From positions 186,001 to 250,000 of the forward strand of contig NZ_OPYL01000002.1 in the NCBI RefSeq assembly GCF_900343125.1: DNA of 64,000 nucleotides, in the 5' to 3' direction. Below the pieces are notes generated by a model. That model saw only the letters and a program-made list of their open reading frames with translations, was not told where the DNA came from and searched no databases. A program made the position numbers and the translations under genes. Shown here piece by piece: positions 19,477-26,503 of the stretch; the first letter of the stretch is position 1; every line of letters starts with the position of its first letter. The stretch comes from Dysgonomonas sp. Marseille-P4361. GTDB taxonomy: Bacteria > Bacteroidota > Bacteroidia > Bacteroidales > Dysgonomonadaceae.

Positions 19477-20361
19477 TTATCTTGGATTTGCTTGCATTCC
19501 GGCTACTACCATCTGCTGAGGTATTTGGAATACTCTTCTAGGGTCATCTACTGTAAGCTTGTCGGTAGGAACAGGTGTTCCATCATAAATCTTACGTCTG
19601 TAGATTTCTATTTTGTATCTGTTGATATCAAACCATCTAGTTCCTTCATGTAGGGTTAAGGCTCTCTTTGCCAACAATATTCCTTGTAGGACGTCTTTTT
19701 GATCTTCGGTAAGTCCTTCCAAATTAATTTCTTTCTTGAATTTTCCGGGATCTACACCTTTGGGATCATACTCGTGTTTTGTTTTTTTGCTAGGATCGTC
19801 TGTGTCTTCTAGTCTCATAAATGCTATAAGCTTCTCAGGACTTTCTGTATGTCTGTAAGATGCATTATAGTATGTGAAAGCTCGTAGGAATGTATCTAAA
19901 TCCTTTGTAGCAGAAACCAAATCTCCGGAAAGAGCATATGCTTCAGCTCTTGTGAGTAAAGTTTCGTCAGCAGTGAATACGGCTTGTACAATGTGTGTCC
20001 AACCAATACCTGCAACCTTGTCAAGGTACTCAAAAAACTCTCCAACTTTAGGCATTACAGCAATCGCACCCTGAGAGGTAACTAAACATCTGTATCTAAC
20101 CCATCCTCCGATAGGAAGGCTTGCATCAGGTGTTATTTCATTATAAGTTATGTTTTGCATTGCAAATTTCTTCCCGATACTAGGGTAGGGACCTGAAACT
20201 CTTCCCCAAATAGACTCTGCAGCTACCAATAAGAAGTTTGCTGTTTGTTCTGGCTCAATATATCTATTGAAAGCTATATCTAACTTACTTACACTTTCAC
20301 CAAATGCCCTTTTTGTATCAAAAAACCTATTTATACTATATTCTTGTCTATTCAAAAACAA
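19477..20361 (-). pseudogene. SusD/RagB family protein, N-terminally truncated remnant
   Basis: A 294-residue frame holding only the C-terminal part of a SusD/RagB protein: LLTRAEAYALSGDLVSATKDLD (TPR-like helix), RALTLHEGTRWFDINRY (the conserved 'E..R.fDl.R' block) and a closing VFQIPQQ. Full SusD proteins have about 500 residues, a lipoprotein signal and a SusC partner just upstream. Here the frame enters the 98-bp tRNA-associated direct repeat at 20343, so its first six codons are repeat DNA. No signal peptide, N-terminal domain or SusC is present. It cannot be a working surface lipoprotein as it stands. Confidence 0.88.
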
Positions 20362-20440
20362 TCCTTATCTTTGCATCCACAAAGAATTTAACCACACTAA
20401 GGAGAGGTGCTCGAGTGGTTGAAGAGGCACGCCTGGAAAG
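20343..20440 (+). repeat. Left attachment repeat (attL): tRNA-Ser promoter and 5' half
   Basis: A 98-base segment identical to 26349-26446. It contains a full promoter (TTG 20344-20346, 19 bases, TATCTTTG 20366-20373) and the first 40 bases of tRNA-Ser from 20401. Identity stops just after the anticodon loop: the left copy then continues TAAGC, not tRNA sequence. It therefore makes no tRNA but keeps a promoter pointing into the element. Confidence 0.92.
20344..20373 (+). promoter_or_regulatory. Orphan tRNA-Ser promoter at the left end
   Basis: TTG at 20344-20346 and TATCTTTG at 20366-20373 with 19-base spacing match the Bacteroidetes housekeeping promoter. It drives the 5' half of tRNA-Ser and then reads into the element, antisense to its genes. 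Confidence 0.7.
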
Positions 20441-20534
20441 TAAGCTTCTATATAAAAAAACTACTCTGTAAATAATATTAAATCAATAACTTACCGATAA
20501 TATTTTCACTTAGATTTTCCTCAATCGTAATATT

Positions 20535-20552
20535 GTACACACTTTTGTGCAC
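20535..20552. repeat. Left 18-mer of a paired end sequence (possible integrase arm site)
   Basis: GTACACACTTTTGTGCAC here and GTGCACACTTTTGTACAC at 26275-26292 differ at two positions only, giving consensus GTRCACACTTTTGTRCAC. Each has partial dyad symmetry (GTRCAC ends). One copy lies near each end of the element, which suits arm-type binding sites for the recombinase or its directionality factor. Function is inferred. Confidence 0.55.
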
Positions 20553-20755: not shown

Positions 20756-21856
20756 TTAATTTATTTTAAATGACTCAATAACAGTTTTTATTATTTGTTC
20801 TTCACTAGCATATTCATCTTGTGCAACAGTAAATGTTATTATGTATAAAATACCGTCTTTAGTTGTTGCATATTGAACAGCCCTCACAGGATAGTTGCTT
20901 AGTGTATAGTCTGCTATAATTTGATAATAATTGAGATTATTCATTGCCAAATATCCTTGTGAAATGATTTCAAAATCATCAAAATATGATTGCATTTGTT
21001 GTATTGATAGTAATGCTGCATCTGCAATGTTTTTAGAAGTGTTAGACATTATAATATTAAAATTACTTCTGAAATTATAATTATCCTCTGGACTTATAAA
21101 AGCAGCAATAACCCCTTGATTTGGTTGAGATACTACTTCATAATTCTTAGGGTACTTTATCGAAAATTCTTTGTAGGCATTATTCTCGAATATTTTATAG
21201 CCAGTATCATTTGAGGAATATTGAATAGTATTGTCATCATAGAAATGAATACTATTTGTTAATTTGTTAAATCTCTCATTTAGATTATTATTAGAAATGA
21301 CAACTAGACAAAAAACATAATCTTCTCTGAAAAAATATATACATTTTGAGCCATAACCATTAAATGTAGTATAAGCCACATAGGCATCTAGTTCTTCATG
21401 ACTAAACCTTACATATTCGGAAGAAACGTCTTGAGTTAATTTATCTAAAATAGATTTTCTAACTTGTTCTTTTTCTTGATGGCTTGATGCTCGATAAGAT
21501 ATTGGTAATTCTATGACCATTAATTGATAAACAGCCATTTTGGTAGGATTATTTTCATTCTCAATAGCACCATATTCTAAATCAAAATCGTTAGAGCTTT
21601 GAAATGAAATATCTTTGAGCGTTATAGGTGTTTTTATGGCTAAATTATATTGAGAGAAAATTTGATAACCTTTCTGTCTATAATAAGCTTCATCCTTTCT
21701 TTCAGAAGATTCAACTTCTCCTGTAATTATAGAATGATCTCTTTTACTCGGTGTGCTAAAATCTTTGTTTGAAGAGTTACAAAGTATTGCTACTACTATT
21801 AACGCTATCATACTAGCTGCAACTATGGCTACAATGTTTTTCTCATTTTCGTTCAT
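20756..21856 (-). CDS. Membrane-anchored protein with two PsbP/DcrB-like domains (element gene)
   Basis: A 366-residue protein with a short cytosolic N-terminus, one membrane helix (IVAIVAASMIALIVVAIL, about 8-25) and a large extracytoplasmic part. The second half (about residues 230-366) has the PsbP/DcrB-like order: FSIKYPKNYEVV, VIAAFISPEDNYNFRSNFNIIMSN, then PVRAVQYATTKDGILYIITFTV. The first half (about 65-215) has a similar order (LAIKTPITLKDISF, MAVYQLMVIELPI, YIFFREDYVFCLVVIS), suggesting a duplicated domain. No catalytic motif is visible. It lies between a second membrane-anchored gene and a tiny membrane peptide in the element. Its role as cargo, for instance in surface exclusion or defence, is open. 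Confidence 0.6.
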   Translation of the reverse strand: MNENEKNIVAIVAASMIALIVVAILCNSSNKDFSTPSKRDHSIITGEVESSERKDEAYYRQKGYQIFSQYNLAIKTPITLKDISFQSSNDFDLEYGAIENENNPTKMAVYQLMVIELPISYRASSHQEKEQVRKSILDKLTQDVSSEYVRFSHEELDAYVAYTTFNGYGSKCIYFFREDYVFCLVVISNNNLNERFNKLTNSIHFYDDNTIQYSSNDTGYKIFENNAYKEFSIKYPKNYEVVSQPNQGVIAAFISPEDNYNFRSNFNIIMSNTSKNIADAALLSIQQMQSYFDDFEIISQGYLAMNNLNYYQIIADYTLSNYPVRAVQYATTKDGILYIITFTVAQDEYASEEQIIKTVIESFKIN

Positions 21857-21996: not shown

Positions 21997-22404
21997 TCAA
22001 TCTAGTAGATTCTTTGTTCTCACACCCAAATCAATATCTTCAATCATTTTCTCTTGAGGATATGATAATTCAAACTCCCATTCCTTCACCTTGTCCTTCC
22101 TTTTATTTCTAATAGATATACTCATGGTATTATAATGTTTTCCATATAACATAAATGTTACTTCATACTTCTCATTAATAGCAGAAAGTACGCTTCTTCC
22201 ATCTGCAACCTCAAGTTTACCTAAAGTATTGTGTAAATAATCAAATAGTCTGTTAAGTAGCACAGGTAGCCCTCCTTTATTCTGAACATTTTCTATTAGA
22301 TACTTAATCTCTTTATTTCTTCTCTTCTCACTAGCTTTTGAGTCTAATGATACAACAACATACATTACAATGCCAATTAAAGCACCAATAAATAAAGCTT
22401 CCAT
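21997..22404 (-). CDS. Membrane-anchored protein of unknown function (element gene)
   Basis: A 135-residue protein if started at the ATG at 22404 (MEALFIGALIGIVMYVVVSLD), which gives a clean N-terminal membrane helix; the longer frame from 22494 adds 30 residues with no plausible signal and is less likely. The cytosolic part has a helical charged region (KASEKRRNKEIKYLIENVQNKGG) and then a beta-rich domain (YEVTFMLYGKHYNTMSISI, WEFELSYPQEKMIED). I recognise no family. It is the first cargo gene downstream of the long non-coding stretch and could be co-transcribed with the 366-residue gene. Confidence 0.5.
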   Translation of the reverse strand: MEALFIGALIGIVMYVVVSLDSKASEKRRNKEIKYLIENVQNKGGLPVLLNRLFDYLHNTLGKLEVADGRSVLSAINEKYEVTFMLYGKHYNTMSISIRNKRKDKVKEWEFELSYPQEKMIEDIDLGVRTKNLLD

Positions 22405-22878
22405 AATTTTTTCTTTTTTATAGCCATACTCACAAAAAGAAGATGTGGCATCCACTATTAGAGTCCAAGGTATTACCACACACCTAAACCACATAACAAT
22501 GAAGCCACACCTATAAAAGATGTAGCATTCACTTTGTTACTGTTGTGGTTTGTCTTTAAAGTGGTAATTTTAGGACTTCACTAGTAAAAAGCAAATACTT
22601 CTTTTTATTAATATGTCTTAGTTAAACTTATATATTCATTCGCAATTATTTGATTTTTGGTTTATTGCAAAAATACGAGATTTAAACAGATATATACCAA
22701 GTTTGAAACTGCTTTTTTGAATTAAATTTTTTCTAATTCATATCTAGGTGTGGCTTAAATGAATGTTATTATGTGTGTTATGAATTATTTAGATTCTACA
22801 TTTTTAAAATCAGAAGTAACTTATTATAGGAAAATACAATTTCAGGATCAACTTTTGTAGAAGATAAAATGTGCAAAT

Positions 22879-22968
22879 TCACTTCTTTCCATCTTTCTTC
22901 CAAATCCAGTATATATACAAAATGAAGCTAATAAATAGCCAAATCAAAGTATTCAAAGCATCTTTCAT
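22879..22968 (-). CDS. Possible 29-residue membrane peptide
   Basis: An ATG at 22968 opens a short frame ending TGA at 22879. The product would have a hydrophobic helix (LIWLFISFILYIYWIW) between a short polar N-terminus and a basic tail (KKDGKK). Design fits a tiny membrane peptide, but a hydrophobic short frame can arise by chance in AT-rich DNA, so support is weak. Confidence 0.25.
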   Translation of the reverse strand: MKDALNTLIWLFISFILYIYWIWKKDGKK

Positions 22969-23160
22969 AAGATTTTGATTTTAAATTAATATTTGCAGGG
23001 GGCTTAACCCCATTACCAAGCATAAGGGGGAGTGTTTTTAAGACTATGCAGCTCTTATATATACAGTATATTTTGTTAAACCTTATGTTATCTTATGAAT
23101 GAATGCAAATTCTTTAAATAGCTTTAAAATGCATTAAACACACTATCTCTTGCTCAAAAG

Positions 23161-23198
23161 AAAAATCCAGTAGTTCTGATTATAAGTTTACTACTGGA
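23161..23198 (-). terminator. Intrinsic terminator of the polymerase gene
   Basis: A 9-bp perfect stem (TCCAGTAGT at 23166-23174 with ACTACTGGA at 23190-23198) followed, on the minus strand, by five T residues. It lies 31 bases after the polymerase stop. Confidence 0.75.
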
Positions 23199-23228
23199 CT
23201 ATTAGTCTTTTTGTAATATGACTGCTAC

Positions 23229-24929
23229 TTATTCTGTAGAGAGTAATGTCTTTTCTATAATTTCTGCATCTAGATCTCCATTGTTTATGTTCCAATACTC
23301 AAATTTCATTTCAGGGGATACTCCGATACATTCTTCTAATTCTTCCTTCATTATCGCATAGACATAACCTTCTTGTCCTATAGTTGTGACAATAGAATCA
23401 TGTATTGTGAAAATTGGTACTTGTTGAGGAGCTTCATCCCATATTCTTTTGCAGCACCTATGGAGTATAATTTCACTTTCTATTGCTTGTAATAAGCAAG
23501 CTAAACGTGCATATTGTCTTTCTATTTTTAAGTCAGAGTATATCCTTTTTATAGTCTTGAATACTTTCATCACAGATGGAAACTTCTCTTCATAATACTG
23601 TTTTAGCCAATAGTTCTCATCTTCAGGATTATTTGCATTGCTTGAAAATAATATCTGAAACATTGTTGTTTTAGCAGTTCCTCGAGATATTTCAATATCT
23701 TTTTCATTTTTAACCCATTCTTTTATCGTTTCATATATTTCTCCTGATGCAACGACTTTTTTATATTCGTCAAAAGTTCCATCAGGCAGATTATTTAACA
23801 AATTTCCCAACATAATGGGGAGGGATTCTCTTGTAGGGTATTTGTGTAGGAAGGATTGTTTTATATTATCTGGTAGGTTGAATAGATTTATGGGTAGGTT
23901 AGAATTTTCTCTCCAAAATTCAGGGTTGAATAATAAACAGGCAAGATAAGGTTGAGAATTTTTAATATCTACGGCAACAAGGGGTTCTCCATCATATGTA
24001 ATGAAGTTCCTATAGTCTTTTTGCATATTCGTTAATACAGAATGTAGCCGATGCACATTTGTGTCAATCATAGCTTTGTAGTCATGTATTTTCAATGCTT
24101 CAAGATTATATCTGAATGAATTATATTGCAGTGAGGGATTTTTTCTTTTCCCTGTATTTTTATTCAAATCCCATTGATCTATATTCTGCTTAACTTTCTT
24201 CTCCTTTAGATTTTTAGCATATAGTTTTGCCCTGTTTATATCTATTTTTAGCTTTTTCTGTTCATACCAATATGATAGATAAGGGCAATGTCGCAATTGA
24301 TTTTCATTGTTACCATCTCTATTATTTTTTATGATAGAATCAATTGCTTTTAAATTCCCTTTCTTGTCAAAAGCTCTAGCATAATAATAAGGCTCAAGTT
24401 CGGCATCAATATATTTATCAGACCATTTATAAGATCTAGAATATCCTCTTTCATTAGGAGTTGATGATTTATAGGATTTATTGCATTCGATTACTCCTGT
24501 ATTCTCTAAGTAGTCAAAATATAGCCTATAGTCACGCATAAAACGATTTAAGTATTCTGCGTTTATTGGCACAAAATCATCATCACCTATTAAATCTTTG
24601 TTCCTAGCAGGGATGGAGCTTAATAAGCCGAGTATATAAATAATCTTTTCTTTATCAAAACGTAAACCATATTTTGCTTCATCAAACCCATTTTCTAAAG
24701 GAGGATATTCACCTATATGAGCATCTACATCTAAATTCTCTGGAAGTAATGCGTAATAGCCAGAGCGGCTAAGCATTACTAATATATAACTAGGAATATT
24801 TAAATCTGAATTTTCCTTAAAATCTAAAATATCTGGATCAATATCAGAAACATCATCTAATATCACATCATCTAATTTATTCTTCTCACCTCTAGAGAAC
24901 CACTCTCTTATCTTATTTATTATATCCAT
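23229..24929 (-). CDS. Single-subunit polymerase-like protein (family A palm motifs)
   Basis: A 566-residue protein with three blocks that match the active site of family A polymerases and T7-type RNA polymerases. Motif A: AVDIKNSQPYL (Asp321, Gln326). Motif B (O helix): SRGTAKTTMFQILF, giving R416-x3-K420-x3-F424. Motif C: FTIHDSIVTT (His510, Asp511). The Ser after HD recalls T7 RNA polymerase (HDS); DNA polymerase I has HDE. The Asp-to-Gln spacing in motif A differs from both. No exonuclease domain or PolA-like N-terminus is visible; the first 300 residues are mostly charged and helical and are unassigned. It most likely copies or primes the element's DNA. Whether it makes DNA or RNA, and whether it needs a primer, cannot be told. 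Confidence 0.7.
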   Translation of the reverse strand: MDIINKIREWFSRGEKNKLDDVILDDVSDIDPDILDFKENSDLNIPSYILVMLSRSGYYALLPENLDVDAHIGEYPPLENGFDEAKYGLRFDKEKIIYILGLLSSIPARNKDLIGDDDFVPINAEYLNRFMRDYRLYFDYLENTGVIECNKSYKSSTPNERGYSRSYKWSDKYIDAELEPYYYARAFDKKGNLKAIDSIIKNNRDGNNENQLRHCPYLSYWYEQKKLKIDINRAKLYAKNLKEKKVKQNIDQWDLNKNTGKRKNPSLQYNSFRYNLEALKIHDYKAMIDTNVHRLHSVLTNMQKDYRNFITYDGEPLVAVDIKNSQPYLACLLFNPEFWRENSNLPINLFNLPDNIKQSFLHKYPTRESLPIMLGNLLNNLPDGTFDEYKKVVASGEIYETIKEWVKNEKDIEISRGTAKTTMFQILFSSNANNPEDENYWLKQYYEEKFPSVMKVFKTIKRIYSDLKIERQYARLACLLQAIESEIILHRCCKRIWDEAPQQVPIFTIHDSIVTTIGQEGYVYAIMKEELEECIGVSPEMKFEYWNINNGDLDAEIIEKTLLSTE

Positions 24930-25050: not shown

Positions 25051-26268
25051 TTACAACAAATTCTTCATAGCTTCATCAATTTGGCTATTTTCAAAGCTAT
25101 CTAGATATATTTGTGTTGTCTTTAAATCTGAATGACCAAGCGTTTCACTTATTATGGCTATATTAACTCCAGACCGTTTTAAAACTGTTGCATATGAATG
25201 TCTTGCAACGTATGTAGTCAGAGGTATTGAGAGATTGATACTTTCTCCAATCTTCTTTAGATTTTTATTTGCCACAAAGGTAATCTTTTTAACTCTTCTA
25301 AATTGCTGTTCTGGTGTAGGGTGTATAGAATCATCTAAAATAGGGAAAATATAGTCTCTGTCAGGATCTTGGTATCTTTGTATTATTTCTAGAGCATAGG
25401 GCTGTAATAAGAAACTAATTTGTTTACCTGTCTTATGCCTTTTGTAGACTACTCTATTTGATACAATATTACTCTTCTTCAAATATGCTATATCAATCAT
25501 ATTGATGCCACATCCTAAATAGCTGAATAAGAATAAATCTTTGCTGAATTGTAATAAAGATTGAGGTCTTTTGCTAATAGTCTTTACATCCAGAGATATG
25601 ATTTTCTGAATATCTTCTTTTGTAATTGACCTTTTAGGGGTTGATTCTTTGAGTTTAGAGACATTATAATCATCAAATGGGTAATAATCCTTCTTTACTG
25701 CTTTTTCTTTAATAGCCTTGTTGTATGTAGCTCGTAAGGTACGCATCTTAATACTTATTGTATTATCTTTATTACCTCGACTCCTTAGATATGTTTCGTA
25801 TCTGTTCAAGTAGGCTACGTCAATATCTGAGAATATTATATTTAACTTTGAGAACTGGAGTAAAGAATTAAATAAGGCTTTGTAGTGTTCAGCATTTCCT
25901 ATTTTCTTTTCATTGATGAGATTTGATATTATCGTTTTTAAATAGTCTTCAACTGTTATTCTCTTTATTGGATTTTCAACCTTTTCGACTAAAGTTGTCA
26001 AAGAATAATCTCTCGCTATTGATTGAAATTCTAAAACTTGTTGTTGGTACTCTTTTAACTTTTCAGTTATAATCGCTTCTATATATTCTCTGTTAGGGCA
26101 ATTCGGCTTTGGTTTGTTTTTAACAAAATCCCAGTGATTGGGTTTTAGTGTAATTCCTGTTCTAAGGTATTTTCTTTTATTATTCTTCGTTAATTTCACT
26201 ACTAAAGGAATTGTTCCATCTGCTAAAGGCCTTCTTGCATCGCAAGTTACAGTAATAATTGTTTTCAT
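25051..26268 (-). CDS. Tyrosine recombinase (integrase) of the element
   Basis: A 405-residue site-specific recombinase. An arm-binding domain at the N-terminus (TVTCDARRPLADGTIPLVVKLTKNNKRKYLRTGI) is followed by a SAM-like core-binding domain and the catalytic domain. Visible catalytic parts: ARHSYAT (box II Arg), LGHSDLKTTQIYLD (His and nucleophile Tyr). The usual box I Arg region reads YLGCGINMIDIAYL and lacks a clear Arg, and box II has Tyr where many enzymes have His. Both variants occur in Bacteroidetes integrases. The start at 26268 is chosen because the longer frame from 26319 runs through the right 18-mer and lacks the conserved beginning. It sits beside the right attachment site, as expected. 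Confidence 0.92.
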   Translation of the reverse strand: MKTIITVTCDARRPLADGTIPLVVKLTKNNKRKYLRTGITLKPNHWDFVKNKPKPNCPNREYIEAIITEKLKEYQQQVLEFQSIARDYSLTTLVEKVENPIKRITVEDYLKTIISNLINEKKIGNAEHYKALFNSLLQFSKLNIIFSDIDVAYLNRYETYLRSRGNKDNTISIKMRTLRATYNKAIKEKAVKKDYYPFDDYNVSKLKESTPKRSITKEDIQKIISLDVKTISKRPQSLLQFSKDLFLFSYLGCGINMIDIAYLKKSNIVSNRVVYKRHKTGKQISFLLQPYALEIIQRYQDPDRDYIFPILDDSIHPTPEQQFRRVKKITFVANKNLKKIGESINLSIPLTTYVARHSYATVLKRSGVNIAIISETLGHSDLKTTQIYLDSFENSQIDEAMKNLL

Positions 26269-26274
26269 TTTTAT

Positions 26275-26292
26275 GTGCACACTTTTGTACAC
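26275..26292. repeat. Right 18-mer of the paired end sequence
   Basis: GTGCACACTTTTGTACAC, the partner of 20535-20552, lies 7 bases upstream of the integrase ATG and 56 bases from the right repeat. Binding here could affect both recombination and integrase expression. Confidence 0.55.
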
Positions 26293-26348
26293 ATAGCTTG
26301 CTTGAAAGTGTCTAAACACGTTGAAATATCAGCTTATACTACTCCTTC

Positions 26349-26446
26349 CTTGTCTATTCAAAAACAATCCTTATCTTTGCATCCACAAAGAATTTAACCA
26401 CACTAAGGAGAGGTGCTCGAGTGGTTGAAGAGGCACGCCTGGAAAG
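26349..26446 (+). repeat. Right attachment repeat (attR), part of intact tRNA-Ser
   Basis: The 98 bases are identical to 20343-20440 and include the promoter and first 40 bases of tRNA-Ser. Here the tRNA continues normally, so the element's right end supplies promoter and 5' half to rebuild the gene. Most tRNA-integrating elements instead restore the 3' end. Confidence 0.92.
26350..26379 (+). promoter_or_regulatory. tRNA-Ser promoter
   Basis: TTG at 26350-26352, 19 bases, TATCTTTG at 26372-26379: a full match to the Bacteroidetes primary-sigma promoter, 27 bases before the tRNA 5' end. The direct repeat begins one base before the TTG. Confidence 0.8.
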
Positions 26447-26494
26447 CGTGTATACCCCTAAAGGGTATCGAGAGTTCGAATCTCTTCCTCTCCG
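26407..26494 (+). tRNA. tRNA-Ser (anticodon GGA)
   Basis: An 88-base class II tRNA. Acceptor GGAGAGG (26407-26413) pairs with CCTCTCC (26487-26493), discriminator G. Anticodon arm CACGC-CTGGAAA-GCGTG gives anticodon GGA (serine, UCC/UCU). A long variable arm (TATACCCC...GGGTAT) and a GTTCGAATC T-loop are present. CCA is not encoded. It is the integration target of the 6-kb element, which rebuilds its 5' part. Confidence 0.95.
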
Positions 26495-26503
26495 CTTATA
26501 AAT

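Follow-up and report, generated by a model that had tools for sequence, protein, structure and literature searches.

A 64,000-nucleotide (nt) stretch of Dysgonomonas sp. Marseille-P4361 (contig NZ_OPYL01000002.1, positions 186,001 to 250,000; hereafter the window) carries an element of about 6 kb integrated in a tRNA-Ser(GGA) gene, and one gene of this element encodes a single-chain A-family polymerase (Table 1). We propose, with a probability of roughly 60%, that the protein is a nuclease-free polymerase of the TV-Pol family and would act as the replication enzyme of the element, both priming and synthesizing DNA. The predicted polymerase fold, the conserved catalytic residues, the boundaries of the element and the partnership with an integrase carry this reading. 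Iyer, Abhiman and Aravind described the TV-Pols in 2008 as minimal A-family cores encoded on mobile elements, those of Bacteroidetes included, together with integrases or resolvases, and predicted that they prime and polymerise (PMC2579912). According to a passage of a 2020 study, no TV-Pol besides CCPol had been characterized to its authors' knowledge (PMC7581432).

An earlier reading, made from the sequence alone, had assigned motif A to D321 (AVDIKNSQP), motif B to R416-x3-K420-x3-F424 and motif C to H510-D511-S512. We found these motifs at exactly those residues, and they are conserved in 113 relatives. This set consisted of the non-redundant rows from 162 closed open reading frames (ORFs) of at least 380 amino acids (aa); shorter and end-cut ORFs were excluded, and rows at least 85% identical to a kept row were removed. 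In motif A, D321 and Q326 are each kept in 112 of the 113, and in motif C the counts are 112 for H510, 112 for D511 and 108 for S512. Because the relatives were mostly collected with patterns containing D..NSQP and T.HDS, the counts for these two segments are partly circular. Outside the patterns, R294 is kept in 112, R307 in 110, Y399 in 112, K420 in 112, Q481 in 110 and E484 in all 113 rows. R416 is Arg in 94 and Lys in 16, and F424 is the least conserved position of motif B (Phe 46, Tyr 36, Leu 21). TV-Pols have a conserved Asp in the fingers; the acidic columns seen here, 385 (Glu 60, Asp 39) and 400 (Glu 71, Asp 17), are not uniformly Asp. One aligned row (L137:12362-14023) lacks D321, Q326 and D511. 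The GR(L/F)H(S/T)-type motif around R294 precedes motif A, the same order as in Pol I and in TV-Pol-type proteins from Polaromonas. In a near-identical pair of homologues from the same genus (L002/L003), 18 synonymous and 12 non-synonymous differences (proportions per site pS 0.058 and pN 0.009) indicate purifying selection.

In the predicted structure these residues lie as expected of a palm and fingers: strand 315-322 has D321 at its end, the turn linking strand 507-509 to strand 512-516 contains D511, and helix 416-428 carries R416 and K420. As in TV-Pols, the modelled palm is of the RNA-recognition-motif (RRM) type with two catalytic Asp residues, and a conserved Arg and a beta-hairpin precede motif A: R294 and R307, either of which may be the counterpart of the hairpin Arg of the 2008 paper, lie just ahead of strands 310-312 and 315-322. 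The TV-Pol thumb is made of two antiparallel helices; in the model, helices 231-247 and 265-280 come before the palm. When the whole model was compared with PDB structures, all 50 matches listed were family A DNA polymerases. The motif order and the palm and fingers claimed by the sequence-only reading are thus borne out, and so is its view of a single-chain enzyme. A nuclease domain was matched in none of Pfam, PHROGs and NCBIfam, which agrees with TV-Pols, nor was any sign of a 3'-5' exonuclease domain seen. The view that no domain can be recognised in the first 300 residues did not hold, since residues ~204-300 fall in the stretch aligned with A-family polymerases and residues ~58-175 look winged-helix-like in the model. 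Searches with the polymerase sequence itself gave no match in Pfam (E value up to 10, the DNA polymerase I model PF00476 included), PHROGs, PADLOC or PDB sequences, and NCBIfam yielded no more than a weak, irrelevant beta-lactamase match; the family profiles A1 and A3 each gave one meaningless match among PDB sequences. Chance occurrence of the motifs was considered and rejected on the strength of the predicted fold and the 113 relatives.

The limits of the element are given by an exact 98-nt repeat that encloses the integrase, the polymerase and two cargo ORFs. The polymerase gene therefore lies between attachment repeats with an integrase adjoining it, as TV-Pol genes do on mobile elements. 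In two congeneric genomes (G005 and G024) the polymerase gene is also flanked by a half tRNA copy on one side and a full tRNA-Ser(GGA) on the other, ~15 and ~50 kb apart. A 41-nt core ending in the anticodon loop is identical across the six copies in the window, G005 and G024. Divergence of the half and full copies begins immediately beyond this core in the window and G024; in G005 it begins three bases further on. The common core and break point show that integration was site-specific. A Pfam scan of the neighbours in the window found no match to a single-stranded DNA-binding protein (SSB) or helicase family. The non-coding stretch downstream of the polymerase gene is an unproven candidate for an origin or control region; no convincing origin-like iterons were found within the element. 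In that stretch there is an imperfect 29-nt inverted repeat (I1, 22497-22525 and 22733-22761) carrying GCCACACCTA/TAGGTGTGGC. Near-identical 19-nt repeats, TGT[AG]CACACTTTTGT[AG]CAC, lie near both element ends (20534-20552 and 26274-26292) and are possible integrase arm sites; only these two exact copies of the pattern are suggestive, and at up to 2 mismatches it was no commoner than chance (5 found, 4.8 expected). A SusD-like gene (19477-20361) has its listed start inside the left attachment repeat; its family match is weak, and it is perhaps truncated at its 5' end.

By sequence comparison the polymerase is likely, though not proven, to be a TV-Pol. We compared it with one named member, a protein of Microcystis phage LMM01 (Ma-LMM01), and with two Polaromonas plasmid proteins. 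The Ma-LMM01 gene, annotated as hypothetical only, was chosen for the motifs it carries and for lying next to a transposase; one Polaromonas protein was found with the Ma-LMM01 protein as query and the other with the first Polaromonas protein. Against the family profile, the hhalign score was 31.7 for this trio, 29.9 for Pol I of the host's order, 24.7 for T7 RNA polymerase and 24.6 for T7 DNA polymerase, and the best of 250 background ORFs, among which was the Ma-LMM01 TV-Pol itself (22.8), scored 26.4. Only the ranking against background is informative here, and the hhalign probabilities are low (0.9-3.1% for Pol I, T7 DNA polymerase, T7 RNA polymerase and the Ma-LMM01 protein). Three points limit this comparison: the trio match, the best of all profiles tried, has an E value of only 0.004; its members taken singly score 22.1-25.0, inside the background; and the comparison of a set of three with single background sequences is biased toward TV-Pol. 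Two of the trio align best in the N-terminal domain (residues 57-175 and 118-176 of the window protein), which hints that this domain is also common to TV-Pols. Furthermore, the three proteins carry LLQGVE, LIQGVE and LLQRIE at the L(L/I)QxxE segment, the LIQ being that of a Polaromonas protein, and their motif A is D-x-x-x-C-H (DIENCH and DLSNCH in Polaromonas) as against D(I/L)xNSQ in the family. A survey of bacterial polymerases from 2026 uses, in the passages cited, the group names PolA1-3 and PolA1-like; the term TV-Pol does not occur in it (PMC12926913).

The motifs also bear on whether the product would be DNA or RNA. At motif A, Pol I of the host's order reads DYSQIE (27 of 30, the other three lacking the pattern), close relatives of T7 DNA polymerase read DASGLE (79 of 79) and close relatives of T7 RNA polymerase read DGSCSG (73 of 74). 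An Asp and a Gln five apart are indeed unlike either kind, as had been noted from the sequence, and the Gln at this position is a real, nearly invariant oddity. The motif-A Glu of Pol I, T7 DNA polymerase and CCPol helps to exclude ribonucleotides. Passages of the CCPol study state that CCPol retains this Glu (the E710 counterpart) and the F762 counterpart (PMC7581432). The sequence-only reading had also pointed to HDS in motif C as in T7 RNA polymerase. HDS is present and is found in 71 of 74 T7-type RNA polymerases, but it is not a safe mark of them, because the two Polaromonas proteins and the aligned Ma-LMM01 protein have HDG, so that the third residue drifts within TV-Pols. Motif B of the family (for example RAEAKTLIYKVFFG in the large-phage relative L009) resembles the RDNAKTFIYGFLYG found in T7-type DNA polymerases; it is unlike the R(K/S)VTKRSVMTLAYG found in T7-type RNA polymerases. 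The T7-type motifs DGSCSG and TKRSVMTLAYG are absent from the window protein, which has DIKNSQ and RGTAKTTMFQILFS. Motif B and the fold point to DNA polymerases. Neither a new kind of enzyme nor a true hybrid of DNA and RNA polymerase is supported; the protein fits the TV-Pols of 2008, a known family that has been little studied, as an ordinary but well-delimited member.

If the enzyme were instead a single-subunit RNA polymerase, transcribing the element's genes or making RNA primers, it would share the HDS, would account for the loss of the motif-A Glu to Gln and could use a DNA-binding-like N-terminal domain. We nevertheless regard this as improbable, as motif B of the window protein lacks the T7 RNA polymerase pattern and resembles that of DNA polymerases. 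The 50 PDB matches listed, all DNA polymerases, do not thereby exclude RNA polymerases, and the absence of T7 RNA polymerase from them is not evidence against kinship. The score of T7 RNA polymerase falls within the background, and since that of T7 DNA polymerase does too, the comparison between the two is undecided.

As a TV-Pol, the enzyme may work as follows. The tyrosine integrase would excise the element, or the element would enter the cell as a single strand; the winged-helix N-terminal domain would bind element DNA; the palm and fingers would start and extend a DNA strand on it, probably de novo; and the host helicase, SSB and polymerase III would supply the remainder. We infer a DNA rather than an RNA product, independence of a primer, the role of the N-terminal domain and the time of action. 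Primase-polymerase activity is predicted, and the guess to this effect in the sequence-only reading is plausible and agrees with the 2008 prediction (PMC2579912).

Relatives were found in four genomes of the same genus (34-54% identity; together with its own genome these make 5 matching genomes out of 101 of the host's family), on one Hymenobacter plasmid and in six records of uncultured phages, 595-735 kb long. Among 296 genomes of at least 90% completeness, sampled evenly over the phylum, 19 matched at E <= 0.001, six of them by weak and partial matches (E 3e-5 to 1e-3). The best 80 of 120 matching stretches on genome contigs and the best 80 of 98 on viral contigs (79 distinct loci) were kept. 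Record titles assign almost all of the 80 genome loci to Bacteroidota; the exceptions are a 'Rickettsiales' metagenome-assembled genome (L155, L156) and a planctomycete (L161). An integrase lies within six genes of the polymerase in 63 of these 80 loci and within two in 45, counts that include near-duplicates and end-cut loci. The element might instead use the enzyme for repair or gap filling, as a primer-dependent DNA polymerase and not a primase. Its DNA-polymerase fold and motif B, and the lack of a partner SSB in the Pfam scan of the element, would suit such a role, which appears unlikely given that family members sit with integrases and that large phages with a member also have a family-B match (12 of 14). 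This coexistence leaves priming as the likely open slot.

The phage relatives are concentrated in very large genomes. In a tree of 112 rows (quick method, midpoint root), a single clade with a Shimodaira-Hasegawa-like approximate likelihood ratio test (SH-aLRT) support of 100 takes in 39 of the 50 phage rows, in records of up to 735 kb, and the phage label changes 6 times on the tree compared with 37 in shuffles. Its rows lie among L008, L009 and L019-L088. We searched 20 large records with a family member, chosen for size and most possibly incomplete, of which L007 and L072 lie outside the clade. The DnaG N-terminal domain model matched in none of the 20, and DNA_pol_A (PF00476) in one, LR756511 (L007), where the match is to the gene right after the TV-Pol and not to the family member itself. 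Two A-family polymerases adjoin at L007:5863-8309 and L014:8768-11217, where the gene directly after the family member, 428-429 aa long, matches PF00476. In 14 of the 20, likewise selected on size (L052 and L054, with polymerases of equal score, may be near-copies), DNA_pol_B was matched in 12 (all partial, with best E values from 5e-7 to 4e-13 and in some records at two separate places), DnaB_C in 10 (8 over the cut-off) and DNA_pol3_alpha in one, LR756511, which has polymerase III-type and A-family polymerases in place of family B. Partial family-B matches lie in two or three places in W02, W03, G436, G443 and G444 (L008, L009, L033, L065 and L068) and are perhaps split or duplicated polymerase genes. 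The Prim-Pol model matched in none of the 14; the primase search covered this model, the DnaG N-terminal domain and Toprim_2. Toprim_2, however, was matched at E <= 0.001 in 5 records (3 over the cut-off), and these may be primases.

It is a fair inference from gene content that TV-Pol may fill the primase slot in most of these phages, that is, among phages that have a TV-Pol. Jumbo phages with a T4-like family-B polymerase carry DnaG-like primases, according to passages of PMC7824862. We put forward as a tentative possibility that the enzymes of the clade are primases unrelated to DnaG and PrimPol, working alongside a replicase of family B and a DnaB-like helicase, and that the element enzyme, with its initiator-like winged helix, is a one-protein initiator-primase. 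If true, this would offer an answer to the question of how DNA is primed in phages that have no recognised DnaG or PrimPol. Searches of the open-access literature, which cannot prove novelty, turned up no work that treats TV-Pols as huge-phage primases. The term TV-Pol occurs in five papers of that literature and is absent from the passages cited of the jumbo-phage overview PMC7824862 and of the review PMC13282480.

The genes beside the family members are mixed. We took 147 neighbouring proteins, up to a size cap, from the initial part of 58 non-redundant genome loci, and Pfam domains among the 137 scanned included those of integrases (19-20), HTH_17 (10), ResIII (6), Eco57I (4) and N6_Mtase (3). 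Type III restriction-modification, DpdB, MzaB, SIR2 and P-type ATPase genes occur as cargo of single elements. Such frequent restriction-modification genes, with DpdB, MzaB and SIR2, could mean that the polymerase belongs to a defence system on the element, a possibility that Rice 2023 raises for PolA-SSB pairs (PMC10061031). We hold this to be highly improbable: the cargo varies while integrase and polymerase stay, L104 has genes for a TonB-dependent receptor and a P-type ATPase instead, and the polymerase itself has no PADLOC match. Recurring cargo (~106, 729 and 138 aa, often then 135 and 650) lies beside the polymerase in L104, L106, L112-L115, L139, L141 and L143; the receptor and ATPase genes of L104 are part of it. 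In some Bacteroidales elements a protein of 726-804 aa is encoded between integrase and polymerase (L090:5702-7882, L092:5485-7839, L094:5488-7839 and L097:5443-7857). By eye the 726-aa protein gave the impression of a helicase, but Pfam, PHROGs and PDB searches with the L090 copy gave nothing, and no helicase is therefore claimed.

Table 1. Features of the element and of its polymerase in the window (positions count from the first letter of the window)
Feature	Residues	Coordinates	Strand	Basis or remark
TV-Pol-like A-family polymerase gene		23229..24929	-	566 aa, ATG start, ORF list
Thumb, palm, fingers of A-family polymerase (predicted)	~204-552	23274..24320	-	VIA alignment ranges mostly ~195-552
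Winged-helix-like N-terminal domain (predicted)	~58-175	24405..24758	-	fold comparison, mostly winged helices, all weak
GR(L/F)H(S/T)-type motif, counterpart of Pol I GRLSS	Arg294	24048..24050	-	112/113 relatives
Motif A, DIKNSQP	321-327	23949..23969	-	conservation among relatives
Motif B, RxxxKxxxFxxxF	416-428	23646..23684	-	conservation; helix 416-428 in model
LLQAIES, L-L/I-Q-x-x-E segment common with examined TV-Pols	479-485	23475..23495	-	E484 113/113, Q481 110/113
Motif C, TIHDSI	508-513	23391..23408	-	conservation among relatives
Left attachment repeat with first part of tRNA-Ser		20343..20440	+	98 nt identical to right copy
Right attachment repeat		26349..26446	+	ends in anticodon loop
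tRNA-Ser(GGA), integration target, intact on right side		26407..26495	+	Rfam RF00005
Tyrosine integrase		25051..26319	-	Arm-DNA-bind_5, Phage_int_SAM_5, Phage_integrase
165-aa element protein, no family		21997..22494	-	weak matches only, best E 0.0077
366-aa PsbP_2-like element protein, possibly cargo		20756..21856	-	PF18933 E 5.5e-9
734-nt stretch downstream of polymerase gene		22495..23228	.	no listed ORF of at least 60 aa

The gene offers a compact, well-bounded test case, with a 6-kb element, a known attachment site, no recognised helicase or SSB partner and, at the position of the motif-A Glu of Pol I, T7 DNA polymerase and CCPol, a Gln that hardly varies. Among known systems it is closest to the TV-Pols, with which it shares the minimal A-family core, the two palm Asp residues, RxxxK, the lack of a nuclease and the residence on mobile elements alongside integrases of the lambda type; L(L/I)QxxE and a motif A of the form D-x-x-x-(C/S)-(H/Q) are further points of likeness to the three relatives examined. 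It differs in the Gln at motif-A +5, where those three have His, in HDS where the Polaromonas proteins have HDG, and in an N-terminal domain that looks like a winged helix, whereas the 2008 paper predicts an all-helical one in a subset (PMC2579912). The CCPol-MP pair of the staphylococcal cassette SCCmec (Bebel 2020, PMC7581432) and the PolA-SSB pairs (Rice 2023, PMC10061031, a survey with pairs from Bacillota only) are, in the passages cited, likewise A-family polymerases encoded on mobile genetic elements with the element's recombinase genes. A PolA-SSB primase of the CCPol-MP type has its OB-fold SSB partner and a helicase next to it in a single operon. In contrast to these, the window element has no recognised OB-fold partner or adjacent helicase, as judged by family matches, and its polymerase shows no trace of the 3'-5' exonuclease domain that they keep fully or partly. 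Pol I and T7 DNA polymerase share with the window protein the fold, the GRLSS-like motif, the Asp of motif A, RxxxK, the Gln of LLQ and the HD of motif C; the window protein lacks their exonuclease domains, has Gln for Glu in motif A and HDS for HDE, and lies beyond the reach of the Pfam DNA_pol_A model. T7 RNA polymerase is alike in HDS, the palm Asp pair and RxxxK, and unlike in its GSCSG and TKRSVMTLAYG and in its length (883 aa against 566). The pipolins and their piPolB, as described in the passages seen, provide an analogy only, that of an integrative element with its own polymerase, which there belongs to family B.
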